Positions 13,390 through 34,253 of a DNA stretch of 64,000 bases are shown here, in pieces (within the stretch, counting starts at the first letter, position 1; every line of letters begins with the position of its first letter). The notes under the pieces are model-generated. The model was not told the origin of the DNA. It made no database searches and saw only the letters and a program-made list of their open reading frames with translations. This DNA is from Sistotremastrum niveocremeum HHB9708 (lineage: Eukaryota > Basidiomycota > Agaricomycetes > Sistotremastrales > Sistotremastraceae), in NCBI GenBank assembly GCA_001630475.1, contig KV419431.1, forward strand, positions 252,905-316,904. Reading direction: 5' to 3'. A program made the translations under genes and the position numbers.

Positions 13390-13712
13390 TCACAGACGAT
13401 CTAACAAAACAAAATATCGTGAGGGAAATGATTGCAAGCGTAAAGCAACAGTCGTACCACAGTCTTCAATGCAAGGTCGAGGCGACCCATTAATGCATGA
13501 TGGATCGTGAGGATTTGCCTTACAGCAAGCATCGCAGGCCGTCACGCACTGCAAATCCGGAGCACTTATCTCAGAGGTTTGTGTGACGGCCGATGTGAGA
13601 TTGATTATACCTGAGCTTCAGTGCCGCCGAAAATGCATACAGTTGCCTGAGCAGCGATACCAGTAAAACTCCACAACGCAGTCAGAAGAATAGAAATATG
13701 AGTTATTCTCAT
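13390..13712 (-). CDS. Small secreted cysteine-rich protein SSP-A
   Basis: 67 residues in three exons: 13611-13712, 13458-13548 and 13390-13400. ATG 13712 begins MRITHISILLTALWSFTGIA, a standard signal peptide with likely cleavage after AAQ. Mature part: one Cys in exon 1 (VCIFGG), then exon 2 CVTACDACCKANPHDPSC and NGSPRPCIEDC, then DRL and TGA from the 11-nt last exon. The eight cysteines fit C...C-x3-C-x2-CC-x8-C-x7-C-x3-C, so four disulphides are plausible. It has only one CC pair, so it is not a hydrophobin (which needs two) and not a CFEM domain. Five homologues lie in the window (SSP-B to SSP-F) with identical intron phases. Function unknown: extracellular, perhaps a wall, defence or effector-like role. 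Not recognised as a named family. Confidence 0.75.
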
Positions 13713-14792
13713 GGCGTCGTCGATGATCAGTAGCTCGAATTTTTCTAATCCGGAGATCCAGAGGCTTTATATTATGTTCTGTCCTGACATGTGAATATGT
13801 CTATGCGGTCAAGTCTCAGTTTCAATGGTCTTGACGATACATCGATAACGGCTAACGGATTGGGGTCAATAGAAGCGGAAGCAATAGGTGGGAATATAAG
13901 CTTAATTGAGCTGCAGCTCGACCCTGAGACCCGAAGTCAGATAAGACAGGGAAGGAGTGGACGAAATGCGGCACATTAAATGGCAGAGTGAACAGCTCGC
14001 GCTCGTGGTCTCGCATTCAAGGGTTTAGGCACGTGCTTTGTTGGGAACTGACCAGAAGTGATAATCATGGAGGCGGGGCGAGCCGTCTAGCACTGACTCG
14101 TCATCTATGCCAGATGCGAGGATACTCCCAAGAGCGTAAAGTTGAGAGATTGTAGACCGAACTCAGAGCTGATAGACGCGGAGCTAGCGTATCGAGACCG
14201 CGTGTGGCTGCATCGCGAAGAAAAGTTTCATGTTTGCAATGATTGCGCATAGAGAACAGAGGCGTTGAATAGATGGGGATTGCAACAAGACGGAAGAGAT
14301 GACAGTTATGGAAGGGAATCGCCCTTCCACGGTGACGCTCACACAGATAGGATCAGTCTTCTACGACCGATCTGGAACACGCTGCCTGCAGTGCGCTGGA
14401 ACCGAAACGTGAATGCGACAGCCGCAATCGCAGTCGACCGGAAGAAATAGATGGGAAAACAAGTTCAAGTGACTGCGACTCGTCCCTGACATCAGATAAG
14501 AATCAGGGACATAAGGGGTAAAGTGCGGCTCATTGGTTCACGGAGCGTATGGCTGGTGGTCCAGTATTCATTAGATCAGCACGTGCAGTATCGGTAGCCT
14601 CAATGTGATTGAGTGAAGACTTTCAGACGTCAAGCAAGGGTGGAAGATCTCAACAGTAGGCCAGGTTGGACACAAAATATTGCGAAGATAAGCGTCCATA
14701 ATAACAGTATCCACCGCATCACTTTACTTCGGTTTTCGAAGCTCCTCAACAAGCACCATAGACATCGTTAGTGGGAATTATAGACGGACTGG
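13713..14792. other. Spacer between SSP-A and SSP-B
   Basis: About 1.1 kb with no frame that can be joined to a gene and no further copy of the cysteine pattern. It holds the SSP-A promoter at its left end. Confidence 0.45.
13765..13771 (-). promoter_or_regulatory. TATA-like box of SSP-A
   Basis: The minus strand reads TATAAAG about 53 bases upstream of the ATG, implying a very short 5' leader. SSP-B, -C and -D have similar boxes at similar spacing. Confidence 0.5.
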
Positions 14793-15093
14793 TCAATTAA
14801 GTTCTTTGAGTAATGTGTTCCATTTGTGAATAACTCAAACCACGTACGACAATCGTCGAAACAAGGTGTGATTCTGCCATTTGTACACTCTTCAGCAGTT
14901 GGATTTCCTTTACAGCAGGCGGTACAGAAGGCCGCACACTTGGAACGTAAGGTTAACATAGACATACCACCTCTCGAAAACATCAAACCTGTTGAGCGTT
15001 CCCAGATGAGACACAAGTGGAGGTGACTTGAGCTGTTACAGAGCAGACGGAAAAGACAGCAGCCAAAAAAGCAACTCGAAAAGCGACTCTCAT
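14793..15093 (-). CDS. Small secreted cysteine-rich protein SSP-B
   Basis: 68 residues from exons 14989-15093, 14848-14938 and 14793-14803. ATG 15093 gives MRVAFRVAFLAAVFSVCSVT, a signal peptide that itself contains a Cys, followed by AQVTSTCVSSGNAQQ. Exon 2 encodes CAAFCTACCKGNPTAEEC, then TNGRITPC and FDDC. The last exon of 11 nt adds QLN and TGA. Intron 2 is short (44 nt, GTACGT...CAAAG). If it is retained the frame reads on to a stop at 14768, giving a longer tail. The common 11-nt exon of the paralogues argues for splicing. The eight mature cysteines have the family spacing. The NPTAEEC segment is almost identical to SSP-C, so B and C are the closest pair. Confidence 0.75.
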
Positions 15094-15966
15094 GACGACC
15101 TAACGATGGATCTGATTAGCACTGACCCTCATTTATATAAGATGAAAGAGGATCACATGGTCGCTCGAAGCTCAAGTCTAACCGTTAAGTCGGCACTCTA
15201 TTTGACGGGGGAGTTGGTCGAAGTTCAGGAAGCAGTTGCTCAACGTGGTATCGCATCGTGGTCTTATCGGAAGAGGGTTGCAATGCCATACAGGCAAGTG
15301 AAAGTGATTGATAGTTGTTATAGCGGAACGAATCGTTTCTGGGTATAGGAGAAAGAACGCGTGTGTATTTATCCGATGAGAACGGTGTGGATCTATGTAG
15401 CATGCGTACGTCCAGGCCTGCATGGCGCCGTGGCATGTACTAGGGTATCGCCGGCTCTAGCTATCGCACAGACGAACCGTGGGGTCGGCAAGGATGATCA
15501 AGACAAGCATCAGCCTGAAGTGCGTAAGCATTCAACATGGAGAGAGGTAGCCAAGTCAAGTGGGATGATTCGACTGAACAAAGTCAAGGTGTTTGAAGTC
15601 ATGTAGCGATACTCGAGCTCTGAGACGGTTGAGGAAGGGACTGCAAGCTTACATAATCTCAGTTTTTGCTTCAGCTTGGCCTGCGACGGTGCTGCAACCT
15701 CTCCCTCGTTCACCTGATTGAGTCAACATCCCTTTTTCTTCTCATGCTGTAAATGGCCCTTGTGGAAGACCTCAGCAGTAGGACGAAATAGCTCCAGGAT
15801 TGATTGACGATTCATTCGCTCTCGTGATCACGCTCGTGACTACTTTCACTATTACTTTTTGCCTTTTGCACGCTTGTCAATTCCAAAATCAGATGGAATT
15901 ATTCCCAGGGATCCCCTTGGCATCTATCGGCAGGATCATACGCTCATCGACGGACCCACGGGATAA
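15094..15966. other. Spacer between SSP-B and SSP-C
   Basis: No supported gene. Several 60-100 codon frames occur on both strands but lack ATG starts or conserved features. Confidence 0.45.
15132..15139 (-). promoter_or_regulatory. TATA-like box of SSP-B
   Basis: The minus strand reads TATATAAA about 40 bases upstream of the ATG. Confidence 0.5.
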
Positions 15967-16296
15967 TCAACGATCCTCTTGAAATACAAGATGAGTAGGA
16001 ACATAGTAGAAAGAACGAGATAACTCAATACCACGATCGGCAATACAGGGGAAAGGTTTTCCATTCGTGCATTCTTCAGCCGTGGGGTTCGATTTACAGC
16101 AGCTTGTGCAGAAGTTGATACACTGCAATTTTTGATTTTGTTTTGATTTTCTGCCAGGATGACGATGCTGAGAATATCGTACCGCTGACGGACTACCAGG
16201 GTCTAACATGAAGCAACTTGGCAAAGTTTGTCCTAATATCATTGTTGTCACGACTGAGGCGATGAGAACTGACTTGGGAACTGAAGGGAGTTTCAT
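15967..16296 (-). CDS. Small secreted cysteine-rich protein SSP-C (last core Cys replaced)
   Basis: 71 residues, exons 16183-16296, 16032-16122 and 15967-15977. ATG 16296 starts MKLPSVPKSVLIASVVTTMI, a signal peptide. Exon 1 ends with SCFMLDPGSPSA. Exon 2 encodes CINFCTSCCKSNPTAEEC, then TNGKPFPC and IADR. The last exon gives EDR and TGA. The eighth cysteine is an arginine (CGT where the paralogues have TGT or TGC), leaving seven cysteines and so at least one unpaired thiol unless the pairing differs. Intron positions, phases and the 91-nt exon 2 are as in A, B and E. Otherwise intact. Confidence 0.75.
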   Translation of the reverse strand: MKLPSVPKSVLIASVVTTMILGQTLPSCFMLDPGSPSAVRYSQHRHPGRKSKQNQKLQCINFCTSCCKSNPTAEECTNGKPFPCIADRGIELSRSFYYVPTHLVFQEDR

Positions 16297-16326
16297 ATGG
16301 TTGAATCAAATGTCATTTTCTAGGAG

Positions 16327-16333
16327 CTTTATA
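16327..16333 (-). promoter_or_regulatory. TATA-like box of SSP-C
   Basis: The minus strand reads TATAAAG 31-37 bases upstream of the ATG, the tightest spacing in the family. Confidence 0.45.
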
Positions 16334-16531
16334 GTGATTGCTATAATTCAAGAAAATACGCCTATTGCGTGCACTCTTTCCCAGATCTTCATGAACGCGG
16401 GGATCAGCTGTGCTGCCAAGAGGTGGTGCAGGCGACACTTGAATGGTAATGACCTCTGTAAGCCCTCGGTAAATTCGTATCCACGCGTGTAACTCTTGCC
16501 TCCTAAGCCACAGTCTCGACCTAATCGTCAA

Positions 16532-16841
16532 TCATTGTTCCGCTACATGATACCAAGCAATCAGATCTCATGACAAGAATATAATTGGACTCCTCATACC
16601 ACAATCTGGAACACACGAAGGGCCAGGTTGGCCATTAACACATTCTGCGGCGTTAGGATGTGCCGCACAGCAGGTGATACAAAACGAAGAACACTGGCGG
16701 TTTTCTCCGTTCAATTACTCATTGGCTCAACAGTTTGAGAAAGCGCACCGCTGCAGTATTTCCAGGGTGAAGGTGGAGACAAGTCTGACCCATCACCAAG
16801 ACCGTCAGGAGTAATGGCGTCAATACGGCTAGCGCTTTCAT
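16532..16841 (-). CDS. Small secreted cysteine-rich protein SSP-D
   Basis: 65 residues, exons 16749-16841, 16600-16693 and 16532-16542. ATG 16841 gives MKALAVLTPLLLTVLVMGQT, a clear signal peptide, then CLHLHPGNTAA. Exon 2 encodes CSSFCITCCAAHPNAAEC, VNGQPGPSC and VPDC. The 11-nt last exon gives AEQ and TGA. Exon 2 is 94 nt instead of 91 because of one extra residue in the loop before the seventh cysteine. The CCK found in most paralogues is CCA here. Neighbour of SSP-C with the same orientation and a gap of about 235 bases. Confidence 0.75.
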
Positions 16842-17442
16842 GTCAGTGACACAGCTGATCTGTCTGTCTCAAACTTCGGGCTATATACTACATTGCTTGC
16901 CTCGAGTCAATTGTATGCCGTTATTATGATCGAGGAAAACTTGCCAATATGGATCAGCTAATAATAGCTGCACTAAGTATTGATCCCTATCTCATACACA
17001 TGTATGTACATGTATCATCGGCCTCAGTGTCATTTCACGTACCTCCTTTCGTTCTAGGCTGATAACCTTTAGTGAGCATTCGACAGTGATTTTTCTCTCA
17101 CGCAATCTCTTGGCGAATATTGGTGCCATGCGGTGTGTTCACTGCGGGTATCGACTCTGAATCTCCTGGTGCTGCAGCGCAGCCGTGGACTGACTTTTCA
17201 TGTAATATTCAACCAGATTTCCTTTTATGAAGAACTGAACACATAAATGGGTCGATACTACAACGTATTGATACAAGAGAGCAAAGAAATACACCGAGCT
17301 GACGCCTGCTACGAGAGGTCAGGAAAAGAATGTCAAAGATATGCGGTCCAATCAACTTTAATGAAAGGAAAGTTCCGATCGCATTATAACTTTCAATCGC
17401 CGGAGACGATCGGCAGGTATGAAGGTTCTAAAGCTCTAGCTC
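16842..17442. other. Intergenic between SSP-D and the membrane protein gene
   Basis: Holds the SSP-D promoter and the 3' flank of the membrane gene. No other copy of the cysteine pattern found on either strand. Confidence 0.45.
16880..16887 (-). promoter_or_regulatory. TATA-like box of SSP-D
   Basis: The minus strand reads GTATATAG about 40 bases upstream of the ATG. Confidence 0.4.
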
Positions 17443-19589
17443 TTACACCCAAGTTTTACTGCGGCCTGAAGGAGACACCTGAGCAATTCGAGGCGGCGAC
17501 TGCAGCATGACATCCCGAGACCCAATCCGTTGCAGCGAAGAAGCATTCTGCTCCGATGCGGAAGAAGAGTAATACCATGACAGCTGTGTTGCCTGGCTTG
17601 ACCGTCTGGTCGGTGGAAGTACTTGAATATGAGAGGGAGATCGGGGGTACGAGTATCCGTAACCATACTCGTATCCTCCTTCTTGTACCTCGCTCTCAGG
17701 ATACTTGACCGAGCCTGTGAGGTTACTGCCGGTTTCGCTGCCGCGGAACATAAAGGTGAAAGCTTCGATCATCATGGACGCAGTTGGTGACGGCTTCGGG
17801 CCGCCTGCCTCGGGATCAGAGGGCCGTCGTGAGGTCGGTGCAGATGACGTCACGGGAGGAATTTGCATAGGGATATGTGGAAATATACTGGATCGAGATG
17901 TCTTAGGGGACATCGCTTGGATACGCTCTCGCAGCCATTGGATGGACAGGAGTCGAGGTGACCGGGTTGCAGATTCGTCAATCTTCTCCTCTATAAACCC
18001 TTTTTTCGGTGGTTCTTCGAGCGACTTGATGAGATCGTCGAGTTCAGCTGTAGTCGATGTTAACTGTTGAGGATCGACACATGATGATTGTGCTTACTTC
18101 TTAAGCCCCAGGCTTGGCTGTTGTTAACAATCCACCACCAGAATCCGCTCATGACGAGACTGACCGTCATGAAGGTCAGTTCGCATACGGTCACTATGGC
18201 AATGAAAAGAGAAGACTGGAACAACCAGCGGAATAGAGGTGACACAAAGAGCCCAGCGTAACTTCCGAGGAACAGAACAGATAGCAGTAGATGAGGCACG
18301 AACAACTGATAGGAGGTGTTTTGAATCGTCCGGTACAGCTTTTGAAACGATGAGCACGTTTCTACAGTCCATCTCGAGTCATGACGTACAAGAAATATCC
18401 ACAGCGGCAGGAGGGCAAGAAGTCCGCCGAAGGAAACGTAGAATAATACTGGTAACCGTATAGAACTTGAAAGGTTGAATACTCTATCAATCCAGAGCAC
18501 TGCTGAGCTCGCAGTGAAAAATACTGCCAGGTGTGATGAGGCCTGCCATCCGATTTGAATCTGCAGAGCATTAGACCATGTCAGATTGACAGTGAAGTGG
18601 TGAACGGGGATCTACCTTTTTGATGAGTGTTCTCGATGAACATGAGTACGGATCTCCTGCTTTTCCGATTATCTATGTGGATGTCAAACAGAAGAAAAGG
18701 CACATCGTTCGAAATACATTCCTTCAATGATCTCCACCCTAGGAAACTAATGACGCCCAAGACTACGAGATTAAAGCTGAGCTTTAACGCCTATCGGTGT
18801 GTTAGTGACCGGAAATGGGTGATCTCATAAGTGTTCATACGTCTAACGTGAGCTTATAATTTCCGGGATCAAAGGGCCGAGGAAACAAGGAAGAGAAAAC
18901 CGCGACAATCTCCTTCTTTTGTATCTGATTTCTCAACAACACTAATAGCGACCATATGGTCGTCAGTGTATGGATCGAGAATGCTGTCACGAGCGATGCA
19001 ACTGCATATCTGAAGATCTGATTTCGAATTCAGTCAATACTCAGGCTGAGTTCCATCGGGCAAACTAACAAAGTGTAGAGATGTGGCCAGAAGCCAGACC
19101 TGGAGGATGATGAGGAGAACATCCTCGCGAACGTGTAGCTCGAAACTAAGATTCGTTAGTCAATGGATGGTTCAGGGAGATGTTCACTGACTTTTGAAAT
19201 GGCCACAAGAACACGAGTGCCTTGCTCTGTTTATTTATGTTGGATGGATCGAGAGGGAAAATAACTGTACACAGGGGACCTGGAGATATACCGTCTGGGC
19301 AGAGTTGCACACTGAAATTGGTAGATGATGATGAAGTATACACCGCGGTGCTATTTCTGGCAAACGAATCGAAGGATGGATTCGATGATGATGCGGCCGT
19401 CCGGATCCCGCGGTCTCCATTGATGTCGAAAACGAGGGTTAAGATAAGGAGAGGAAGTTGTGTTAAAGCGTGAATCAAAACAACTGATGTGAATACAAGA
19501 ACGAAACGAGAAGACTGTAATAGTGCATTAACTTCTCTTTTAGAATATGAACCGCAAGGACGTACGAATGGATTTTTTCGTGGGCACAT
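17443..19589 (-). CDS. Polytopic membrane protein of an Agaricomycete family of unknown function
   Basis: About 630 residues in several exons. ATG at 19589 (MCPRKNPFVRPCGSYSKREV), a first membrane segment FVLVFTSVVLIHALTQLPLL, and a luminal or extracellular loop with NST/NFS glycosylation sites and cysteines. Then about seven hydrophobic segments, including VLLIILQVWLLATSLHF, AVASLVTAFSIHTLTTIW, LKLSFNLVVLGVISFLGW, HLAVFFTASSAVLWIDRVF and LPVLFYVSFGGLLALLPLW. The C-terminal cytosolic tail of about 200 residues is rich in Ser, Pro and Tyr and ends at 17443. Splicing into the tail uses the acceptor giving TELDDLIKSLEEPPKKGF. The one-plus-seven layout with W..L....G.......LWID is one I recall from many mushroom proteins without assigned function; a Wntless-like topology is only an analogy. 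A possible extra 5' exon (ATG 20094, joining through an acceptor at about 19598) is reported separately. Confidence 0.65.
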
Positions 19590-20707
19590 CACTTCTAGAG
19601 TGAGATCTCACAAGTAATAAGCAAGAAATGCGAAGAAATTATATTGACATGGAATAACAAGCCTGTGTTGCTGGAAGACGAAGAGACGGAGCCCTGCTCG
19701 TGGTCGCGGAAAGGCAAGAACGACGGGACGGAGTCAAGATAAGACAATGAATAAGGATCCTAACTCATTATTGACCACGGTTGCCTCCATAGTGTCGATG
19801 GCGACGACCACACGGCGACTAACCTTTGTGGACGAATTTGGAGCAGTCGGATACAAAGGAGCTCAGCTCCGCTGGCAGTTGCGGTCGGCAGGAAGCGCCC
19901 CGCGCTAAGCATAAATCGACGGTTGCCGCCTCACCCGAACCGGGATCATTGCTCTTCCTTTCTCCTGCTCCGTTTTCCATTTGTGCCTTTGTGGGTTGCA
20001 GCCGCACGTCCCTGAACGAATTGGGATCTGTCACGGAGACCACCACTTCAGAGTTGCTTACCGCTCCTTTGGCAACTTGCTTCTGGAAAATCATGTCGCT
20101 TCTCAGGTCAGAAAACGACTCTGCATCAGGAGCGCCCCCGACGGCGATCAAAATAGCTCATCTCATTCGTAGGATCTCATGACATGAAGACGGTGTTGTC
20201 CGTGGATATGGGATGCTTCCCTGTTATTTGTATGACCAAATCTCCTAGGATCGGCAACAACTCTATCGATCGTCAATTGGATCTGATCATATGCAGGTGC
20301 CTTCAATTCAGGGAACGCAGGACAGCCTTGCTAAGTCTCGCGGGATTTCTCCGCAGGCCGTTCTATTCAACATTGTACGTGTCGTAGCCTACTAGGCCTA
20401 TAGGGCGGGGCTTTTTGTTAAGCAACGGTGAAGGGCTATTCGGAAGAAATGACAACTCAAATCTTGACAGACGCAGATCACTTTTTGAGTGCTCATTATG
20501 CTGGGCTTATACTGCATTGCTTTATATCGATGCCCTCTCCAAAGGCTTTGTCGAACTGTCTGGACTTCTCGGTGAGCTCGCCGTTCCTTCAGGAAGTTCG
20601 GAAATCACATATTTCCCTCAAAATATGACCACTCGAGATTGTACTCTCTGATCTACCTGTCTCTGTCTGTTTCACTTTTTATTTTTTCACTGGGAAGCGG
20701 CGGCTCG

Positions 20708-20803
20708 TACGGTTGCCCCTGAGTCCTTAGTAGAAAAATTCAAAATTCAATTTACGTTTTCAATTCTCACGACAGGTTACCCGACGAGTTTCACCGAGGC
20801 CAC
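20708..20803 (+). repeat. Inverted repeat arm A (diverged gene fragment)
   Basis: About 87% identical by eye over 96 bases to the reverse complement of 22559-22654. Both arms stay open in the same frame and encode TVAPESLVEKFKIQFTFS (arm A) and TVAPESLVENFKIQFTFS (arm B), followed by TTGYP. Arm A continues to a stop at about 20865. This looks like two paralogous coding fragments in opposite orientation, not a simple repeat. Confidence 0.6.
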
Positions 20804-21943
20804 TTTTTCGGCTCGGCCAAGTTCTCGGACGTCAGATCATGTCAGATATGTTGATACGTGTAATTAGCATTAGACATTAGTATGGGTTTGAGGGTGTAGA
20901 CATGAATATGCCATCATCGCGTACACAATATCTTGCCTCTTTCATTGCTTTATAATGAGACTTTTTTCCTGGATCGTCAGACGCGGAGTTGAACAGGTTA
21001 CCATATGCCAAACGTTCGAAAGTCTCGTCTTCATGTTGTGCGTAGACACACCTCTGCCGTTCAAAGGTTATTTTGAGGTGATTATACTATATCGCGTACA
21101 CCTTCCGCCTGTATTATTTCACTTATCGCTCCTCGAAACCCTCCATTCGCTCAATTTCGCTGTCTTTCTTATTTTATGATCCGCCCCCCTTCAATTTGAG
21201 AGATTGTGCGGTCCAGATCTGTCTCGAGTTATTCTATGCGCAAAGCATCAGCCACGCCGGAGCAACGATACACGTAGTTTATGAAGCCGCAACCCTTAAT
21301 AGGTCGTAAGGACTGACACTCCCCTGCTGAAATTTGAGATGAAGCCGGAATCCAGGTTTGAGACGCATGAGAATGTGACCTGATGGTATTAGATAATTCA
21401 GTGGTATGACATACAGGGTACACGCTCACACCCTTGTGTCTTGTCCAGAGGGGGAGAAGAAAATCCAGAACAACGATTCAGAACGCACAAGCACGTTCCG
21501 CGGTACGTGGGTGAAGTGCCGGAGTCCGGAAGGACCCGTACAACGTAGATGTGATGAGCACCGTTGTGTCAACGAATACAAACCTATGTCTTCAATAGCA
21601 ATGTATTTTGTATGACGGCAGAATTCTAACAGGGTTGATGGAGCTGACAGGAGAGTAAAATTTATGTATGGTGGACTTGTCACGATGTTTGTCAGAGCAT
21701 CACAGTGTGGATGAGAGGATGTTGGGAGGTGGAAGCGCCCAAAGTCGTGCGGAGGTGTAAATACAGACCAGAATACTGTATCGGTTGAAGGGATAGTCAG
21801 CGGCGCAATCTCATCATTGTTTTCATGCGAATGGTTGGGTAGGGCTCGAGCGTAGGGGATCTGGAAGTAATAGAGACTGAGATGTCAGGGAATCGCGATA
21901 TATAAATTGGACGCACCGTGATCACTGTCCGCATTCTCCATCT

Positions 21944-22677
21944 TCATCGCTTTCGACATCTCGACGTCTCAAATGCAAAGCCCGAACCCTCGAGGTCATC
22001 ATCTTCGCGTAGGCTCTCTACTTGCGGTTTATGTTCTTGTGTTTTGAGATACTTGCGTGTTTTGTGGATTTGGTAGAATGCCTGTCTTGTCACTGAGCGC
22101 CATTTGTCGAGATACATCTTTGAAGCAATGGCATAACAGAATCCAGTGGGTAGAAAGAACTTCGAGAACAACCGTAAGTTGACGATTCAGTTACGAACGA
22201 ACAGCTTCTATAATCCGCAGGCCGACGCCAGTGACAGGTTGATTTGTGAAGCTATCTGGAAGTTGGCGACATGCCAGTGCCGGACCAAGTGCCGGACGAC
22301 ATCAGAGCCGGGACCTTTGTTGACAGAAGATGCGATACGAAAAAAGCTCGACTAGCATGAGTAAGATAGAACGGCGACGGTAAGATATCGAGATACAGAG
22401 AGTAGCTATGAGCGTCGACGCTGAAGGAAGCAAAGCCTGCAGTGAGCAGAGAATACCCCTCGTTCAAACTCCGCCGGCATCGGCTTGACCGGCTTGACCT
22501 TCTCTGGGCCAGCCGAATAAAATCTGGATCTAGATCGGGCATCACCTTCACCCAGGAATTGGCGTCGGCGAAACTTTTCGGGTAACCTGTCGTGAGAAAT
22601 GAAAACGTAAATTGTATTTTGAAATTCTCTACTAAGGACTCAGGGGCAACCGTAGGCTCGCCTGGGCCCTGGATCAC
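21944..22677 (-). pseudogene. Possible remnant of an unrecognised protein gene
   Basis: Two minus-strand frames, 22252-22677 and 21944-22171, have protein-like composition. Between them another frame reads VVRHLVRHWHVANFQIASQI and is closed by a stop. No ATG start and no clean set of GT-AG joints connects them. It could be a decayed gene, or one whose introns I cannot place. Family not recognised. Confidence 0.25.
22559..22654 (-). repeat. Inverted repeat arm B (diverged gene fragment)
   Basis: Partner of 20708-20803. On this side the frame is longer: IVIQGPGEPTVAPESLVE continues to TTGYPKSFADANSWVKVM and DLDPDFIRLAQ. It may be part of a minus-strand gene remnant reaching toward 21944, where a basic C-terminal-like frame (MYLDKWRSVTRQAFYQIHKT) occurs. 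The parent protein is not recognised. Confidence 0.55.
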
Positions 22678-23345
22678 AATGTTGGCTTGTCGTGAAACCG
22701 GTTGCGTTACCGACGATTGCTCATAGCAATCTATAACACCTATGACTTTCTATGTGGTCACGCTGCTCTCTTTCGCGGTAGGAGCTGCAATAGAACAGTC
22801 GAGGACCTCACAGTCACAGAGTTATATATTGTCAAGACTGACCGCTTTGCTGGAGCAAATGTTGTGACCGTGCTGACATTTCTGGCAGACACTGGAACAC
22901 CCCGAATCCTAACTGAATTTCTTCGACTCCACGTAGGATCATATATATACCCTCAGATATATTTATTGAGAACAAGACTGAGCAAGACTGAGAACGAAGG
23001 GACCAACCGTGGCTTGCCGAGGCCCGGCTACCCGCTGGTGCCGAAAGATATCAACAAGCACAAATAATGTGAATATTTCCGATGGCCATGTTTCAGCGCT
23101 GCTCCACTTTCAAGTAATTCATGCATTCATCGAACGATCTGCTTGCATATCCCAGCTGCAAGGTTTCTCGCAGGCTTTAAATTGCTATGTGGATCGACCG
23201 AAGTGTAATTTATCCAAGGCGTTTAGCAGCGCGCCTCAGGGAAGACACAGCTGTGCAGGCAAGTGCAAGGCACGGGGCTTCCAGCAGTGAGGTTCCCTGT
23301 CATATACCCTGGGTATGCTTGTGAGCTTGTCCTGTCCGCCTCAGC

Positions 23346-26300
23346 ATGTCTATGCCACTTGACGATGCTCAACCTATTCTTCCGGGGACGGGGACGTCGT
23401 CGCATGCCTTGCTTCAAGAGCTCGTAGGCTTGATTCGAGATCAAAAGGATTTTATGAAGGAACAGTCCGAGCGGTGGCATGAGGTCTCCAAGTGGAACGA
23501 GGAACAATCTCGGAGGTCCAGCGAACATGTGGAACTCTTGAAGGAGCAGAATAGGATTCTGGCGGAGCAGTCTTTGTTACACAAGAAAGAGACAAAGTCG
23601 CTGGGTACTTTGGAGCAAGATGCGTTGAAAGGTGTGTCTCTCTCGGACATTATGTCGTTCTCTATTGACGTTCGCAGGAGAGCGGCCATACGCATCTCGT
23701 AGCTGGGACGATCCTGCTGCGTGGCGTCCTGTCTTCGAAAGGATAATGGAAACGACGAGAGAAAGAGTTGACGTATGGAGAAATGGGATGGACCTTACTC
23801 TTATATTCGTATGTAAGCCTCAAAGTGGGCTCAAGCCAAATGTCTAAAACTTTCGCAGATCGCTCTTTTCTTGACCGTGATCACCGCCTTTCTTATCCCT
23901 TCCATACAAAATGTGTCACCAAATCCCGCTAGTCCCGGTAGCGATCCTACCATGGTGACGGCAGGTACTCAGAACGCGACGGATGCGACCTCACCTCCAC
24001 CTCGTTCTGATCAAGCAATTTACATGTTTTATTTCACTTCGTTGGTGGCCAGCGTGAGTGAAGCATTCCAAAAGATTCTTCTCAGAACTCAATCATAACC
24101 AGATAATAACTGCTGTACTTTGCGTTCTCGGGCGACAATGGATTGGCAGACTGAGCACTGCACCCGATTCCAAGACGTACTGCGATAAAACCTTGAGACA
24201 TATTGTTTTGAAGGTACAGGCAGACAAGTTGCTTTTCCCGATCCTGAGAATTATTGAGCCGATGATGGTGGTTTCAATCGCTCTCTTCGTTGCAGGATTG
24301 GCTTACCAACTCTGGACTTCGGCATTCTCATTCAGTGAAGGCATCTTCATTATCAAATTCACAGCGGGTTTCTCTACCGTTTTACTCGCCCTGCTGGGCC
24401 TACTCATCTTCATATCGCTATGCCACGCCATCTTGCACCGCGATTCGCCCTTCGAGAGCCCCTTTTCCAAAATCCTTGGCATCCTGGCACGTACATGGTT
24501 CCGTCTGGATGTCAAGCTCGGGACCATCGGTAACTTTGACCGGTACGAAAAGCTTAGAGAGCTCTGCGCGAGTGGCTCTCAGACTGAGGAGCAAATTCTT
24601 CGCCTGCATCGGATGGAGTACTTGGCACAGGAAGAGTATGCCACTCTTATCGCTGACATAGCAGATCCAGATTTGCTCGATCGCGCGGTGTTGTCATTCC
24701 TTCCGACGACTTTCAAAGATTATGAATTGGGGTGGAATAAGACCCGATTCGAAAAGCCGGAAATGACCCTACCTCTTTTCAACGCCGTCATGCGCATGCT
24801 CAGCGTCGATTCAAGCCCGTCGGTTCGACTTACAGTCGCTACCCAAGTCCGGGCCATGATCAAGGCTCACGCTGCCAAATATCTCCTTCTGACATCTCCG
24901 CTATGGATCATTATCCGGGATCGTCTCAAAGAGATTTACGAGGAAGCGCAAAGGACGGACGCGGCGTACCGTCAAACGTTCTTCGTTACACTCGTTGACC
25001 TTCATACCTTGTTGCAACTCACAGGGCGTCGCCAGAGGTATTCGTTGATCGTAGACTGGTCATGTGCCGAAGTTTACTTGTCTATCGATATGACGATCGC
25101 GAAAGCGCTCAAATACCCCTCGAGTCTTCGTCCCATCACAGGGTTCACAAGCACCCTGTTTTCGAATGCTGTTGAGCTGTGTTATATGCTGGGCTCTTCG
25201 GGAAGAACAGACGAGCTCGCTCGGATTATTCAGCGTCTCGGTCTGTCAGACATACTGAGAGCACTGTTAGCTCAGTCTGCTTACACATGGCAGCAGCTCG
25301 AACCCTTTCTTCGCAGTGCATTGCCTCAGCGCGAGTTGACGTTGTCCGTCCTTGTTAACTGTTTGGCCCAGGACAGCGACTCCCAGGCTCCTCATATCGT
25401 CAACGGCAGAATCATGGCCGTTGACCTGATTGGATACTTGCTTCCGCCTAACATGGACGAAAAGTCATTCGCGCACATTAAATTAGCAACCGATATCGCT
25501 TTAGATGGTCTCGATCCCCTCATGAAGTTACTCTCTTTTCCTTCTGCTTTGGGTGCCGACGTGCAAACTGGCTACGAGAAATTTTTGCTTCTCTTCGTCT
25601 CAGCCTTCCCGGTCCGGAAGTTCGATAACTGGGATCTTCTGTATACCTTCGTCGCACGGATCGCTTCCAATACTCGCGGTGCTCACAGTCTGGAAACACA
25701 GGACATTGCTTCCAGATACCTGTCACATATTCCTCTGGGTTCCCCAGAAGCTCAAATTGCTTTTAGTCTTCTTGACAAGCGAGTCCCCAATTCGGCGTTA
25801 TCGGACTACATTACCGAGTCCGTAATTAGGAATTGCCTGATCTTCGCCCAAAATAACGATGCAGGTTACGTGCCAGACGTAACAAAGCGTGGGCGAAGAG
25901 GCGCAGTTCTCTGTGGCCTCATTCAGCAGCCATACTTCGGATGGGATGCGTTGGCCCCATTAAGGTCAGCCTTTCTTTGCGACGAGACACTGGATTTCGA
26001 GGACTGGCAATTTTTAAATGGATTCGTGAACAACACAATCACCCTTCAAACACTCGAAGGTGGATGGAAATCTAATATGTTCTGCTTTCTTGAAGAAGTT
26101 GTCAGCACAATCAGTGCTCAACCCAGCCGATTTCTCGACTTTCGGCCAAACTTAACGTCATTGACCTTGCAAAGTTCTCACCTCCTTGGCAACCATGCTG
26201 AAGATCAATCTATGACTCTCGACTTCCTGAAGAAGCTTGTCTTTGTGTTTGTTTGTAGAACATGCTGGAAGTTATCTGATAAGGATGTCATGATCGAGTT

Positions 26301-27197
26301 TATGAAGAAATGCGTTGCTAAGGGAGTGCCGTTGTCATTGCATTATCTTGATGTCTTGCATGGTGCGTGCATCAAGTGATATTTGAAACCCTGGAGTCTC
26401 ATCCCGTACAGGCCTTCCCCGACACGACGCTTTCCAGATACTGCAGTCTTTCTGTGGTGAAGCAGATCATGTCACCACTCAAGACGAATTCGAGGGCGCG
26501 CTATACGAGTGTATGGTCCTGGTCCATTCGGAACACAAAGAAATGTTTCAAGCTTTTCTCCATCACGAAAATGTGGCTAAACTTCTCATCTCTCTCGTCC
26601 GTCAATCATATGTTCCATGGACCGATCTTGAACCTGTGGTCAAAATCATTCTAGACCATCTGTACAAGTCCCGTTCGGTGCTTTCGGAGGAAGTCATGGC
26701 GTTGGAGAAATCCGTGGATGACATTGCCGAAGTCTCAGCAACGAATGGTCGGATGAATCTCCTCGATTTTCTTGCCGACATGCGTTCTCGTGGATGGACG
26801 ACGGCAAATGGAGGGTCGTCTTCGACCGCACCTTTCACGCCAGATGTCTCGCATCTTCTATCCAAGCTTCCGCCTCGGGATTTAACGGATAAAAATGCGT
26901 GGTTGAACGGCATGGATACCTTGATGCATTATGTCTCGGAGGGTCCGCTGGAGAAGATCAGAGATGTTGGTGCGCTGAAGAATTTTCTTGATCAGTGTAT
27001 CCAGGAACGGGGCGGGTTTGCGAGTAATGAGACTGCTGCGCTTTGCGAGGCATTCTATCGCAGAACTGGCTGTGGGTTTTTCATCTTTATGGTTGTAGTC
27101 GATCTGTTGACATTATGTAGATTTGAAGATGGATTATGAGGGAGAGGAGAAGAACGGGTCGAAAGGAGATCTGAGGATAGACGCCGAGTATTGGTAA
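23346..27197 (+). CDS. DUF6535 domain membrane protein with N-terminal coiled coil
   Basis: About 1,200 residues. ATG 23346 (MSMPLDDAQPILPGTG). Residues about 20-90 form a charged coiled coil (EQSERWHEVSKWNEEQSRR). Then the DUF6535 region: WRPVFERIMETTRERVDVWR and membrane segments DLTLIFIALFLTVITAFLIP, YMFYFTSLVASIITAVLCVL, GRQWIGRL, IEPMMVVSIALFVAGLAYQL, and a fourth at FSTVLLALLGLLIFISLCHA. The remaining 800 or so residues are helical and repeat-like, without a motif I know. Introns close three early exons; the long exon runs from about 24107. Splicing after DVLH at about 26365 joins GLPRHDAFQILQSF, and a last intron after YRRT leads to YLKMDYEGEEKNG and EYW, with TAA at 27195-27197. DUF6535 proteins are abundant in Agaricomycetes, with unknown function. 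Confidence 0.8.
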
Positions 27198-28084
27198 AGC
27201 TGATAGCAGCCGTTTCAAGATGGTTACCTGGTGCTCTTAATTTACACTACACGGGCGGAATATATACATGTACATTTTCCTTTCCATCCACATTACTCAC
27301 CCCTCGGCCTCGAGATCTTCGTCGCCCTGCGCTTCTCCAAACTCGACACTTTCCGGAAACCACCCATAAGTCCTCAAATTAACTCTACCACCTCCATCAT
27401 TTCCCCCCTCCAGTCCGACTTCCCCACCAGTGACTTCGATACCCTCGGCTTCTAGTTCATCTCGTTGACGTCGAGCACCTGACGTTCCGGGTCCGCGGGA
27501 AGATATTTGACCGGAGGAAGATATTACACGAAACCAGGGAAGATTGGATTGAGGGTCTAGGTATTTTAGGGCTGTACTTGGAAATGGAATCAGTCGATTT
27601 GGATGGCATGGGCAGAAGCTGTTGCGGCTGACCTTGACCTACGTGTCGTGAATGACGAGGCATGCCTACTAATTTAGCAATGTGGCCTGCTTTATGTGAG
27701 ACCTTGTGTAATGCGAAGCTTCAAGATGTTCGTTGACTGACCATAGCTTGTCACTTTGCCTGGTGGTATCTGTCTTACGACTCGATAGACCTATGCTCGG
27801 ATTCAGGTTTAGGTCGCGGTCAAAGGAAATATATCTTAGACTTACAGCTGCATGAAATTCAGCCGCATCCATCCAAGACTGTGCGGTCAGGACTAACACG
27901 AGTCAAAACGAATGCGCCTGGATGAATCGAAACAGAATAAACGATATAATAAACGCCCATCGGAACCGCAACGCAACGGCGATTACGGAATCCTGTCCCG
28001 ATCCGATTTTACCCGAACCACCTCTCCTCGTCTGCAACGACCATTTCTCGAGCTTGCTCTTAAATCAATATACATGCTACCATT
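27198..28084. other. Intergenic, nothing recognised
   Basis: About 0.9 kb between the DUF6535 gene and the Smr gene. Short frames only. Confidence 0.45.
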
Positions 28085-28935
28085 ATGACATGGTGGTCAA
28101 CGTCCATCCGTAACACTTCACGGCATATTCCATCGTCTACATCCATCCCTGGTCAAATTTCAGGTCCACCGACACGATTTATCAAGAAGACACTTCCGTC
28201 ATCGATTTTGGAATGGAGACATAGAGCTAATGAGGAGGGTGAGATGGTGGCGAAGTTTCTTGAGGAGGCCAGAGAGGAGTTCAGGAATGGGAGGAAGGGT
28301 ATGGCTAGTAATGTACCCCCCTATTTTGTTGAAATGGAATAAGACGATGATGCTGCATGATGATAGTTGAAAGATCAAGCGAGGGAACGAAGAGAGCTGC
28401 AAGATGCTCATAATGAACGTGCTGCTTGTGCCATATTCAACTTCTACAACCCCGATTATCCAATCGATGCGGATGTCATCCCTGTGGACTTCAACCCAGA
28501 TTCTCCGAACGTCTCGCTCGAGCCTTCATCTTCCCCAGCAACCCCCCCAGATGTAGCAGATGCACTAGGAACAGTAGATCTTCATGGTCTATTTGTTTCT
28601 GAAGCTTTATTCTACTCCCGACGCCATCTGCACTTATGTCTCTCGCATTCCATCGGCAGTACACAATTCATAACAGGCCGCGGGTCAAATCGCACAGGGA
28701 AGATCAAGCCAGCTATCAAAGAGTGGCTATTGGATGAACAACGGAGACGAAGAGAGGCAGGCGATCAAGGCAGGTTCTTTGTGCGAGATGAGAGCATGAA
28801 TTGGCAGTTTGGCGGTCTGAAATACTTGACGAGGCAAGGAGAGCCAAATGCAGAGCTTGATGCTACGATCAGTACGTCTTTTGTCGTTGCGTTTGAAACC
28901 TGAATTGCTAATAGCTCGTAGCCGTCTTATTATAG
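28085..28935 (+). CDS. DUF1771-Smr domain protein
   Basis: 248 residues from exons 28085-28312, 28367-28871 and 28922-28935. ATG 28085 (MTWWSTSIRNTSRHIPSSTS). Residues about 40-105 match DUF1771: LEWRHRANEEGEMVAKFLEE, then a basic stretch and the joint SN|LKDQARERRELQDAHNERA, ending AACAIFNFYN. The Smr domain follows: VDLHGLFVSEAL (the LDLHG box), a helix, and TGRGSNRTGKIKPAIKEWL (the GxGxxS/TxxG box with downstream helix). Smr domains bind branched nucleic acid or RNA and often have endonuclease activity. DUF1771-Smr proteins in fungi include the Cue2 type, which acts in no-go mRNA decay, but no CUE domain is visible here. It ends DATITVLL and TAG. The exon 1 donor (GTACCC) is non-ideal. Upstream exons cannot be excluded. 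Confidence 0.75.
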
Positions 28936-30181
28936 CGCCCTCTTCACTCGAGCTCCAGAGTCACGACCCAGAATGCAGATGATGTACGACATCATAGCTA
29001 CATCATTAATAACCCGGAATACAGCCTAGTGGCCAGAGCAGCTCCTAGGGCGAGCCAAGCACTCTCAGGATTTGCGGAACGGAACTTCCGCACAGGTAAT
29101 GAGTTCCGTCAAAGTTTCACGGTGCTCTTGTGACGGAACTCTGTTACATTCTGGGGTGGAGATGTTGAGACCGGATGGGCGGTAGGCTGTGCACAGGGAG
29201 AGGCCCGCCGTGCGTCTTTCACGCGCCAGGGGCGAGGCCAAGAGCGTTATTCGGGGGTGGCATTCAGCAAGGAGGGTTGTATACACTATATATGCAGGTT
29301 GTGCATACCGTAGCCTAGTTCCTGGAGTCGGCAATAGAGGTGTGAGAGCGAACGAGAAGCCTGAGAGTCAGTTTGAGCTGTAATTTGAAATAAGCGCAAG
29401 CATTCTGGGGTTGGATTAGGCTCCGGACAAGATAATCATGCTCCGAGGATCAACTCCCATAGGTCGTGAGGCACTTTGTTGAGATGATTTGCGATGAGCA
29501 GTGTTATGAAAGAGCCGTGTTCAGTAGATCGCCGCGGATACTAGCTGGTTGGAAGACGAGAAGAGCCTGGGCGTTATCAAGATATCCGCAAAAACGACGA
29601 CAAGTGAGCGGCCGAGATTTTCAAACCAGGACGACGCGTTCAGAAAACTTGGGTTGAAGTTGGCTGTTGCCTATTAGAGACGATGAGCAGGAAAAAGGGA
29701 GCAAGAGAGGGCCTAGGGGCGTTGCTGATTGGTGCGGCCGAGGTGTAGATATACGGAGTAGAAGACTCGTGACGATGAGCTCGAGATATAATTGAACGCA
29801 ACGTTGCGCGTGCTTGGTTCGGTCGTGCTCGTCGTGTCGTCTGCGTGATCCCGTCGCCTCCCCGCCTGACCTGCCCACTGGAATAAAGAGCTCAAAGACG
29901 ACACACGCGTTCCGTGCTCGTTCCCGCACCTGCATCCGTTTCCGTCAGAGGCCGCGGCGACGGTGGCTGCATGTGATAGCATTATCAGAATAGGCAGAAG
30001 AGGGCTCACAGCGAGTTTATCAGAGAGCAGTACGTACGGACTGTCCCGGCTCAGTGGTGGGGCAAAACGGAACGGCTATGGGATGCAAAATATTATAAGA
30101 CCTCGGATCCTGCAGGCTCCTCCTTTTCTTTTCCCCAGACTACCAACCCCCACTCAGCTTCGACACTCATCCTCAACCACC
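28936..30181. other. Intergenic, PEPCK upstream region
   Basis: About 1.2 kb. Frames on both strands near 29000-30000 lack ATG starts or conservation. The right end is the PEPCK promoter and leader: pyrimidine-rich CTCCTCCTTTTC-type sequence 60 bases before the ATG, common near transcription starts of strongly expressed fungal genes. No clear TATA box; a TATTATAAG lies about 90 bases upstream of the ATG. Confidence 0.4.
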
Positions 30182-32190
30182 ATGGCCCCTTTCACCTCCA
30201 ACCAACGTTTCCTTCAGACCCCTTATATCACCCCCCATATACTCCATAATACCTATGCTGCTACCCAGGAATCAGACAGATATAATCATCGTCAGTTCTT
30301 TCCTTTTTAGTCGCAAAATTTTCTTCCGTTGTCATCGTCATCTGGTCCTCATCATCATGTCTCACTTGCAGTTCTTGGTCGCGACCTCGAGTACTTTTCT
30401 CAGGCGGGCTTTGACATGGACAAAGTCGCCTTGAAGCGCAATGCTCCACCTGCTCAGCTCTACGAAGATGCCGTCAGGAACGAAGGCGCCATCATCTCCT
30501 CCACCGGTGCCCTCATCAACTTCTCTGGCAAGAAGACTGGTCGCTCGCCCAAAGACAAGCGCATCGTCTATGAAGACACCTCCAAGGATCATATCTGGTG
30601 GGGGAGCGTCAACATCAAGATGGACGAACACACCTTCGAGATTAATCGCGAGCGTGCCATCGATTATCTCAACACGAGGGATCTGGTGTACGTCTTTGAT
30701 GGATATGCGGGATGGGATCCCAAGTACCGTATCAAAGTTCGCGTCGTCTGTGCTCGCGCATACCATGCACTCTTTATGGTGCGTTTTTTCTTACTGTTTC
30801 TTCTATTACGACCTCTACTGACGTAATGTCTCAGAATAATATGCTTATACGTCCTACTGAAGAAGAGCTCAAAAACTTTGGCGAGCCCGATTTCATCATC
30901 TACAACGCTGGTCAATTCCCAGCGAATCGCTTCACCAAAGGCATGACTTCGACCACATCGGTCGAAATCAACTTCAAGCGTATGGAAATGGTCATTCTCG
31001 GAACGGAATATGCAGGCGAAATGAAAAAGGGTATCTTCTCTGTTATGGTACGCATCGATCTTATCTGTTCATCATCAAATCTCAATTGACGTATTCCCTC
31101 CCAGCACTACCTCCAACCCGTCAAATTCGGTCAGCTGTCTCTCCACTCTTCCGCCAATGTCGGTATAGAGAAAGGCGACGTCACACTATTCTTCGGATTG
31201 TCGGGAACCGGAAAAACGTAAGCTCCCGATAAACCCGACAAAGCCCTCGGCTAACAATTTCTTCCGCTTTTTGCCTCGGACTCTCGGATGGATTGCTTGA
31301 TTGCTCTCGACAACAGTACACTTTCCGCGGATCCTCATCGTCAACTTATAGGCGACGACGAACACGTCTGGTCTGATACTGGCGTCTTCAACATCGAAGG
31401 TGGCTGCTACGCGAAATGTATCAATCTTTCTCCACAGAAAGAACCTGAGATCTATGCTGCTATCCGCTTCGGATCGATTCTCGAGAACGTCGTCTATGAT
31501 CCTATCTCTCGCTCACCGGATTATAATGACGTTTCTATCACTGAGAACACTCGTTGCGCCTATCCTATCGAGTTCATCCCTAACGCTAAAATTCCCTGTG
31601 TCGCCGATCAACAACCCTCTAACATCATCATGCTCACATGCGATGCTTACGGCGTCCTTCCACCCGTCTCCCGATTAACTCCTGAACAAGCGTCCTATCA
31701 CTTCTTGGCAGGATATACATCCAAGACACCCGGAACGGAAGACGGCGTTCTCGAGCCCATTCCCACATTCTCCACATGTTATTCAGCGCCTTTCATCGTT
31801 CTTCATCCAGGAAGATACGCATCTATGCTCGCTGAACGAATGGCTAAACATAACGTCGATTGTTGGCTCATCAACACCGGCTGGACGGGCGGTAAATTCG
31901 GTGGATCAGGAAAGAGATGTCCTTTGCCTGTGACGCGCCGAATCGTCGATGCGGTTCATTCGGGTGAATTGAAGAATGCGGAGTTTGAGACTTTCGGCGT
32001 GTTTGGATTGCAAGTGCCTAAGGCTCTGGAGGGAGTTCCGAGGGAGTTGTTGAATCCTTCGTTGGCTTGGAGTGATAAGCAGGCGTTTGAGCGAGAGGTG
32101 AGGAAGTTGGCGGGCATGTTCAATAAGGCGTTTGCGTTGTACGAGAAGGATGTGGATGAGAAGGTTAGAGCTGCTGGACCTCAATTGTAA
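30182..32190 (+). CDS. PCK1: Phosphoenolpyruvate carboxykinase (ATP)
   Basis: Converts oxaloacetate and ATP to phosphoenolpyruvate, CO2 and ADP; the first committed step of gluconeogenesis, cytosolic. 571 residues in five exons: 30182-30290, 30372-30778, 30835-31047, 31105-31217 and 31317-32190. ATG 30182 ([20 protein letters not shown]). Landmarks: [27 protein letters not shown], the P-loop [14 protein letters not shown] (an intron splits the second Thr codon), kinase-2 [31 protein letters not shown], and [19 protein letters not shown]. Length matches fungal ATP-type enzymes (about 550-600). All catalytic boxes are intact. Expected to be glucose-repressed, which is known from the family and not shown here. 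Confidence 0.96.
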
Positions 32191-32678
32191 GAATTTGGAA
32201 AAATCTGTTGTATGTTAGTTTTCTTTTCCCTTTTTTCATCTGTTTCAGTACCATCTTGTTCGTCTGTTTCCATTTTTTCTCTTGCTCTCCTTGGTTTGCA
32301 GAATCTACATACATGTGATATTAGCGATAGTTACACTAATTGACGAACACGATAAACCATAGCCAACGAAACCCAGACAGCTGTGCGACGAGTCTTTCAT
32401 GCCTAGATCCAGAAATCTCTTGGCAGTCGAAGATTGTACACATGGGAACAGCGCATTACCGAGCCCTGTGGACGAACCTCGCGAGTTGTCTGATCGCGCG
32501 GTAAGCGTTGTAGTCTGGACCAAAGGCTATTTAGACTATCAGACTGATCCCGCTCAATGGCCTCATCTACGAAGATTATCGGTGCTCGTTCCTGGGGTAC
32601 CGCGTGGTAACTGGTAGCCCTTCAGAGATAAAGAGAGATGTGACCGCGAGTCAACTGCCTAGAATCATCTTGAGAATC
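32191..32678. other. Intergenic between PEPCK and SSP-E
   Basis: PEPCK 3' flank (T-rich to about 32290) and SSP-E upstream region. No TATA box as clear as those of SSP-A to D; only GAGATAAAGAG near 32629. Confidence 0.4.
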
Positions 32679-32969
32679 ATGAAACTTCCCGCAACATTGA
32701 CGATTGTCGCGGCTTTATTCGCTGTGGCACAAGCAAGCTGCGTCTTCAGCGGGACTCCAGCACAAGTAAGATTGACCTCGTTATAAATGATTCCGAGTCT
32801 TATGTTTTGAATCAGTGTCCGATCTGGTGTGCGGCGTGCTGTAAAGCAAATCCAAACGATCCGGAGTGTCTGAATGGCAGGCCATCGCCTTGTACAGCTG
32901 ACTGTGGTGAGTTGGTTTTCTGATAGTGATAATTTGAAGGATTCAATAGTGCTTGCAGAACGTCTATAA
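32679..32969 (+). CDS. Small secreted cysteine-rich protein SSP-E
   Basis: 62 residues, exons 32679-32765, 32816-32906 and 32959-32969. ATG 32679 gives MKLPATLTIVAALFAVAQAS, a signal peptide with likely cleavage after AQA, then CVFSGTPAQ. Exon 2 encodes CPIWCAACCKANPNDPEC, LNGRPSPC and TADC. The 11-nt last exon gives ERL and TAA. It is the closest relative of SSP-A (CCKANP, ending CDRL versus CERL) although it lies 19 kb away on the opposite strand, so the family has dispersed as well as duplicated in tandem. All eight cysteines are present. Confidence 0.75.
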
Positions 32970-33949
32970 GGTCCTGATCGAAGTCATAAAGTCACCCGAG
33001 TACAGCTGGTGAAGGTTGGCTTTGCAACTACGTGCATGAAGTGCCAGCAACATCGGCGTGCGAAGGTATACGTTGGGGACTGGGGATTAACTTGAAAAAC
33101 TTCGGGGGATGAATATAGAGATTAAGATAAGCAGCATATAGCGCCGCTTATGTAACAAGCACGCATCGTGAGACCGAACTGTGCGGCATCAGTAGATATA
33201 GAACTGAACGTGCATACACTTGTACTGCCAAGGAGTAGGATGGGACGTCAAAAATTAACATGTGATAATTCTTTATGCCTCACGAGACCACTCTGCACTA
33301 GCTCTCCAGAGTCGTGAGGACGTCCAACGAGTCGGCGAGGATGTTGGAGCTCCGAGTCTAAGGCGAGCATTTGGGCAGGTTATGGGCAGCCATTTTGATA
33401 CTGAAGGGGATAGTAATCTTTCGGGTTCAATTGACTGATATAAGAGCATATTTATAAAGAGGCGAACAGGAGGCATGAGCAGTGCATTCTACAGACGAAG
33501 TGGTCGATGTGATCGGAGTTGGAGGAGGGCAAAACACCGAGCCGAGTGCTCGGAGTTAAATCTCCGAACCTGTCCTAAGGTCTTCATCCATTCTCTTGTG
33601 CGTTGAACTTGTCTTATGGCTGACACATGATTCCAGTGGTGATTGTATGGTGATATCAAGACTCAGGATCCAATAAAAAGTTCTATTATTAGAGCCTAGG
33701 CATTTATGCGAGACACGGCCCGGCCTCCCAGTGGGAAAGCCTGAACATTTTCATCCTATGTTCGTTTCCTTAACTTGATGCCGTTGCGCTCTAAAGCCAC
33801 TCTATCAATGACCCTATGGTCATGAGAAGAGGTGATCCAAAATATCCACCATGCCTCAGAATATACAAGACGTTTAGGATGCCGCTGCAAACCTGTGTAC
33901 TGCACGGACCCTCATCTATCACTCAACCATACTCGCACCGACTTGAGCT
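32970..33949. other. Spacer between SSP-E and SSP-F
   Basis: About 1 kb, no supported gene on either strand. Confidence 0.45.
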
Positions 33950-34253
33950 ATGAAGCCTTCTGTATATCTGTTTGTGATGCTTCAGTTTGGGCTATTTTCA
34001 TCGGTACTCTCTCAATGCGGCATTATATCAACCGACCGTGCTGTTAGTATATTCGAGCGGACGTCCAGATATCCCCGATATCTTACTGAAGCTACACCTA
34101 GGTATGCGCACACGGCTGCCACACTTGCTGTGAAGAATTTCCGACTGCTGTCGAATGTGAGGACGGCACCTGTGTTTCCGCCTGCCGTGAGTCTTTTCGC
34201 CTTCTTGTTAATGGCTTGCTGCGAGGCCTCACATGATGATAGTGATGGGATAA
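33950..34253 (+). CDS. Small secreted cysteine-rich protein SSP-F (most divergent member)
   Basis: 62 residues, exons 33950-34042, 34102-34186 and 34243-34253. ATG 33950 gives MKPSVYLFVMLQFGLFSSVL, a signal peptide ending SQ, then CGIISTDRA. Exon 2 starts one codon before the core: VCAHGCHTCCEEFPTAVEC, then EDGTC and VSAC. The proposed 11-nt last exon gives LMG and TAA (acceptor ATGATAG). The x7 loop is shortened to four residues and exon 2 is 85 nt. The 5' donor is GTTAGT. The final exon is assigned by analogy with the five paralogues; other acceptors, for example at 34279, would give a longer tail to a stop near 34380. All eight cysteines are retained despite low identity otherwise. Confidence 0.65.

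Follow-up and report, generated by a model that had tools for sequence, protein, structure and literature searches.

A family of at least 15 small, cysteine-rich, predicted secreted proteins, six of them clustered in one region of the Sistotremastrum niveocremeum genome

Cerato-platanins have four cysteines in about 120 aa, CFEM proteins have an eight-cysteine spacing of their own, and defensins of the CS-alpha-beta type carry a CxC pair. The accessible text of PMC4659598 gives cerato-platanins four cysteines in 136-139 aa, and the available parts of PMC7711543 and PMC9856046 describe the plant snakin/GASA motif as having 12 cysteines; it contains CX8(9)CX3CX2CC, and the structure has a helix-turn-helix (PMC7711543). 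The DELD proteins of Piriformospora indica, as set out in the part of PMC3192844 available, are a small secreted family of 101-135 aa, rich in His and Ala and ending in RSIDELD. Here we describe a family of genes for small, predicted secreted proteins (SSPs) in Sistotremastrum niveocremeum HHB9708, centred on a 64,000-nucleotide stretch of contig KV419431.1 (positions 252,905-316,904; hereafter the window, C38:252905-316904). This is a genuine gene family of at least 15 members, six of which, SSP-A to SSP-F, lie in the window.

Re-reading of both regions of the window and scripting of six gene models gives each gene an ATG, two in-frame GT..AG introns of 39-103 nt and a stop codon (Table 1). 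The location, strands, three exons, leader, cysteine-rich mature chain and tandem plus dispersed copies reported in a preliminary description are all recovered; its product length of 62-71 codons becomes 62-73 in the rebuilt models, and SSP-F, formerly drawn to 34253, stops at 34236. Eight mature-chain cysteines had been claimed for all six and are present in five, SSP-B having Arg at the Cys8 position. The single exact spacing then proposed holds for SSP-C, SSP-D and SSP-E (3/6) and departs from SSP-A and SSP-F (x8 and x4, respectively, between Cys6 and Cys7) and from SSP-B, which has no Cys8. SSP-C has one extra Cys inside its leader and the longest third exon among the six, and SSP-F is the most diverged member, with an intron 2 of just 39 nt. 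Intron 1 of SSP-B (16182-16123, minus strand) is 60 nt long and open in frame, and an unspliced form would add 20 residues. Within the window the core C-x3-C-x2-CC-x(4-12)-C occurs at these six places and nowhere else. A longer core, C-x3-C-x2-CC-x(7-9)-C-x(3-9)-C, is present in all six genes; 60 first-order Markov simulations of the window never produced it.

The family had been thought to number six, which proves an undercount. Searching the genome that contains the window (34,710,156 bases, 111 contigs) at the protein level with the exon-2 peptides adds nine members, four elsewhere on contig C38, four in an array on contig C70 and one on contig C41; four more queries added no place, and the total of 15 is a lower bound, as the genome search scores best candidates only. 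Some of the first matches among these paralogues are weak (such as C38:135754 at 0.10, C70:57747 at 0.27 and C41:74742 at 0.72), and the SSP-F query matched itself alone and was matched by no other query. We therefore tested membership by leaving out each gene in turn and running a profile of the other 14 against the window and eight other loci, all translated in six frames. All 15 are recovered, with E values from 1.9e-12 to 2.9e-5 (the weakest being SSP-F) and the top non-member at 0.014-0.11, which makes the membership of SSP-F and of the members C70a and C41a firmer.

The 15 products are 60-73 aa long and share the consensus spacing C1-x(8-11)-C2-x3-C3-x2-C4C5-x8-C6-x(4-8)-C7-x3-C8, in which the first seven cysteines are invariant in the 15-row alignment, as is a Pro at the fourth residue past C5, and Cys8 is kept in 14/15. 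The order C-C-C-CC-C-C-C is likewise found in 14/15, SSP-B lacking the last Cys, and C70a may carry another Cys past Cys8. The genes have a common layout, with a hydrophobic leader and Cys1 in exon 1, Cys2 to Cys8 in exon 2, and a tiny exon 3 (11 nt in 13/15). In all 15 models intron 1, in phase 0, directly precedes the Cys2 codon (SSP-F has it one codon further upstream) and intron 2 is in phase 1, exon 2 stopping one base past the Cys8 codon or position; exons 1 and 2 of the paralogue models are better fixed than exon 3. The leader occupies 18-27 residues up to Cys1 and, as judged by hydropathy and not SignalP, has a hydrophobic core in all 15 and a positive start in 14.

Antimicrobial peptides are usually cationic. 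The net charge here, counted from two residues before Cys1, ranges from -8 to 0, being negative in 14/15 and zero in SSP-C. It is thus unlikely that these are defensin-like peptides directed against bacteria or fungi: such peptides are typically small, with a leader, many cysteines and tandem copies, as here, and the C-x3-C-x2-CC stretch is shared with plant snakins as far as the sources above describe them, but the mature chains are acidic in all members other than SSP-C, and the Pfam matches listed to E<=10 include no antimicrobial family.

Two lines of evidence bear on whether the genes are functional. Across the ungapped block from Cys2 to Cys6, six non-overlapping close pairs differ at 24 first, 23 second and 55 third codon positions (55/102 third; one-sided binomial p=1.5e-5), the figures becoming 24, 23 and 41 after removal of codons that are Cys in both (41/88 third; p=0.007), with the qualification that the pairs were chosen by hand and the sites are not fully independent. 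Protein-level constraint on the family is thereby supported. A TATAAA or TATATA lies at -120 to -30 of the ATG in 10/15 genes, whereas two control stretches lying farther upstream have 0/15 each and the background is 4.1% of random 90-bp window pieces; duplicates can share promoters, and these counts are not 15 independent cases. The third-position excess and the TATA boxes support functional genes. The missing Cys8 of SSP-B and the strong divergence of SSP-F, matched by its own query alone, would suit repeats that are decaying and without function, or a reading-frame pattern arisen by chance, but we regard this explanation as extremely improbable in the face of 15 concordant intron-exon models, the third-position excess, the TATA boxes, the absence of the longer core from all simulations and the leave-one-out recovery.

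The maximum-likelihood tree separates the six genes of the window from the other nine (support 90/94) and unites the C70 array as a single group (97/96). Five place labels require 5 changes on this tree (minimum 4) compared with a mean of 9.1 when shuffled, none of 200 shuffles being as low, a pattern that we take to reflect local duplication and a degree of dispersal. SSP-D pairs with SSP-E and not with its minus-strand neighbours (80/55); from this pairing the two window groups seem, weakly, to be of common origin. The best reading of the history is a birth-and-death gene family.

Our leading guess as to role, ahead of self-signalling, antimicrobial and structural functions in that order, is that this birth-and-death family of at least 15 genes quite possibly encodes compact, mostly acidic secreted miniproteins acting outside the cell as effector-like peptides. 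Judging from the anatomy of the chains, the leader would send them into the secretory pathway, and the eight cysteines would pair as four disulphides around a short helix bearing Cys3-Cys5. Contacts would come from the Cys1-Cys2 and Cys6-Cys7 loops, which vary in length and sequence, and tandem duplication would yield loop variants upon one scaffold. The targets of such peptides would be other organisms: a competitor microbe, a grazer, a plant or a fungal partner.

Several points weigh against this proposal. The effector role would follow by analogy from general features of small secreted proteins, and SSP-B, with seven cysteines of which one would be partnerless, may be in decay. Exon 3 of the nine paralogues was picked among several acceptors with the window genes as guide (that of C70a being ambiguous), and its agreement is therefore partly by choice. 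On the tree, single place groups are no tighter than shuffles (3 changes compared with 3.6 for the window minus-strand genes, 3 with 3.7 for the other C38 genes, and 2 with 2.0 for the window plus-strand genes), good support is limited to 2/12 inner branches, and long branches lead to SSP-F, C41a and C70a. Amplification plus dispersal had been taken earlier to suggest selection; the third-position excess bears out constraint on the protein, but amplification alone is no proof of selection, and each of the 16 pairs listed, out of 105 compared, has a synonymous divergence (dS) for the mature part that exceeds 1 or could not be computed. Because synonymous sites are saturated, positive selection cannot be judged, and diversifying selection could not be shown. 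Two structure models (six-row window alignments; queries SSP-E and SSP-C) speak for the proposed helix, both placing one at exon-2 residues 2-11 with Cys3, Cys4 and Cys5, but they are of low confidence (pLDDT 63.7 and 59.9; pTM 0.29 and 0.28) and cover only the 30-residue exon-2 peptide without Cys1.

The proteins might alternatively be developmental or self-signalling peptides that adjust growth phase, ligninolysis or fruiting in the fungus itself, as is reported for Ssp1 of Pleurotus ostreatus. The portion of PMC7105643 available reports that multi-copy Ssp1 genes in Agaricales affect development, and the TATA-type promoters here suit stage-specific expression; however, the comparison with Ssp1 is one of description, and the loops differ strongly from copy to copy for a signal that would address a single receptor. 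We consider such a role conceivable but doubtful, and keep it in view because small secreted proteins, according to the same portion of that source, also occur in saprotrophs and can influence development (PMC7105643). The effector-like reading stays our first choice, and should partners or competitors prove to trigger expression, the genes would constitute a new effector family. Three-exon genes this small may well escape annotation, and secretomes of such fungi may be undercounted. With 15 members and variable loops on one scaffold, the family yields a profile with which every fungus could be searched, and its small products lend themselves to disulphide mapping and structure determination.

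Table 1. Coordinates of the SSP genes and of DUF6535 genes beside them (SSP-A to SSP-F in window positions; other locations as contig or locus and position).
Feature	Location	Strand	Product (aa)	Exons	Cysteines	Leave-one-out E	Remark
SSP-A	16532..16841	minus	65	16841-16749, 16693-16600, 16542-16532	eight	2.3e-10	
SSP-B	15967..16296	minus	71	16296-16183, 16122-16032, 15977-15967	seven	2.5e-9	
SSP-C	14719..15093	minus	73	15093-14989, 14938-14848, 14744-14719	eight mature	5.1e-11	
SSP-D	13390..13712	minus	67	13712-13611, 13548-13458, 13400-13390	eight	2.3e-8	
SSP-E	32679..32969	plus	62	32679-32765, 32816-32906, 32959-32969	eight	1.6e-10	
SSP-F	33950..34236	plus	62	33950-34042, 34102-34186, 34226-34236	eight	2.9e-5	
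Further member	C38:135754						exon-2 peptide search of genome
Further member	C38:137845						exon-2 peptide search of genome
Further member	C38:146472						exon-2 peptide search of genome
Further member	C38:152799						exon-2 peptide search of genome
Further member	C70:57747						C70 array; exon-2 peptide search of genome
Further member	C70:58650						C70 array; exon-2 peptide search of genome
Further member	C70:60076						C70 array; exon-2 peptide search of genome
Further member	C70:60918						C70 array; exon-2 peptide search of genome
Further member	C41:74742						exon-2 peptide search of genome
DUF6535	L017:559-2058	plus					beside SSP group
DUF6535	L018:1918-3450	minus					beside SSP group

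Genes of the DUF6535 family (PF20153) adjoin every SSP group, at 24058-26379 (plus) in the window and at C70:62468, C38:133235 and C41:62745, and all 15 SSP genes lie 1.6-19.6 kb from one. Zones within 20 kb of the 150 listed DUF6535 matches (129 merged places) make up at most 8.5% of the genome, a figure for which 150 of 312 candidates were scored and whose true value may be about twice as large, and for this association the 15 SSP genes represent some five groups spread over three contigs. We regard the association as suggestive. DUF6535 matches in the genome number at least 151, and 20 of the 150 listed are on contig C38; the family is also present in the mushroom Flammulina velutipes, according to the available part of PMC12387923. 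The shortness of the SSP introns and the presence of DUF6535 are in keeping with a basidiomycete fungus. The neighbouring DUF6535 genes hint at a common fast-evolving genome compartment. A more far-reaching scheme, which we think improbable, would make the SSPs a new basidiomycete disulphide fold independent of plant snakins, in which a helix with Cys at i, i+4, i+7 and i+8 (Cys2-Cys5) would be pinned by Cys1 and a C-terminal Cys6-Cys8 loop; this scaffold, open to duplication, would serve in recognition outside the cell, and would be in physical linkage with the DUF6535 membrane-protein regions in a genome compartment that evolves fast.

Other genes were seen in the window and beside the C70 array. 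A GH131-type glycoside hydrolase gene (L017:4899-5531, plus, on C70) adjoins the C70 array and is at most compatible with a fungus living on plant litter or wood; within L017:4899-6413 (plus), past the GH131 part and in another frame, there is a Ser/Thr-rich linker and then an apparent CBM1, recognised by eye. In the window, a phosphoenolpyruvate-carboxykinase-like gene (30311-32190, plus; by eye) is directly upstream of SSP-E, and an apparent tandem tyrosinase array (also by eye) spans 47801-62268 (plus), the sole copy tested (61483-62268) having PDB matches to polyphenol oxidase and tyrosinase chains (2y9w, 3w6q). The 5.8S rRNA was not found in the assembly among the best 39 of 1406 candidates scored, the rDNA being absent from the contigs or missed. 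In the sequence used, a long stretch directly to the left of the window (C38:243001-252900) reads as N.

Pfam matches, listed to E<=10 with HMMER filters dropping most above about 0.1, stay below the family cut-off in all 15 members. The top match is DUF7374 (PF24089) in one member (18.5 bits against a cut-off of 27, E=0.0018), and we take this and the other sub-cut-off matches, to Metallothio_Cad, LcrG, FeoB_associated and GEO12453p1-like, each in a single member, as chance; a DUF7374 search of the genome itself gave no match, and its control likewise gave no signal. NCBIfam, searched with the six window members, gives LcrG_PcrG at 0.16 in one member and nothing else. Among PDB sequences there is no match to SSP-E or to the 15-row profile, and gastrin receptor matches of a six-row profile (E 0.49 and 0.63) are gone with 15 rows. 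SSP-C found no relative among prokaryote genomes, nor SSP-E among viral contigs, which is expected and carries little information, and a hand-made DNA pattern found no places. A full-text literature search, with most subscription papers outside its reach, turned up no fungal family of such Cys spacing. The earlier impression that the proteins are undescribed thus stands as regards Pfam, NCBIfam, PDB sequences and that literature, and appears provisional for other fungi, as searches among fungi covered the genome of this species.

The family had also been set apart from hydrophobins, CFEM proteins, cerato-platanins and defensins, and rightly so: their Pfam models are not among the matches listed to E<=10 for any of the 15, and the order of cysteines differs. 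The chains have seven or more cysteines in 60-73 aa, unlike cerato-platanins, and a CxC pair is found in none of them, unlike CS-alpha-beta defensins. Hydrophobins are, like this family, small, secreted and multigene in fungi with eight cysteines, but their order is C-CC-C-C-CC-C, whereas the SSPs have one CC pair and a shorter chain. A hydrophobin-like coat, or another structural protein of the surface or cell wall, would fit the eight cysteines, the leader and the many copies; given the different order, the lack of a hydrophobin match, and a content of A, V, I, L, M, F, W or Y of just 16-29% from Cys1 on, it seems very unlikely.

The plant snakins offer a partial parallel, since the stretch C-x8(9)-C-x3-C-x2-CC, as their motif is described in the text available, is present in 4/15 members (x8 in SSP-C, SSP-D and SSP-E; x9 in SSP-F). 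The other 11 have x10-11 in the first loop, the cysteines are eight and not 12, the Pfam model is not among the matches listed to E<=10 for any of the 15, and the CVPxGxxGN...CPCY...KCP part of the snakins is missing. Because the remaining GASA motif is missing, we take the resemblance as likeness of one helix and not kinship. Conotoxins with the framework C-C-C-CC-C-C-C, compared by the framework description available, are alike in Cys order and nothing else, which we take as coincidence. The DELD proteins, in the part of PMC3192844 noted above, resemble the SSPs in being a secreted, lineage-specific family that has grown within particular regions of a basidiomycete genome, but their size, His/Ala richness and RSIDELD end are not shared. 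The closest likeness is to the fungal effector-like SSPs, a class and not a family, which the portion of PMC7105643 available characterises by a leader, a length below 300 aa, many cysteines, no known domain and multiple copies, the comparison being one of class features. All 15 proteins described here have a predicted leader, are short and cysteine-rich, and contain no known domain, and relative to the databases searched they would appear to form a new family within this familiar class of small secreted cysteine-rich proteins.

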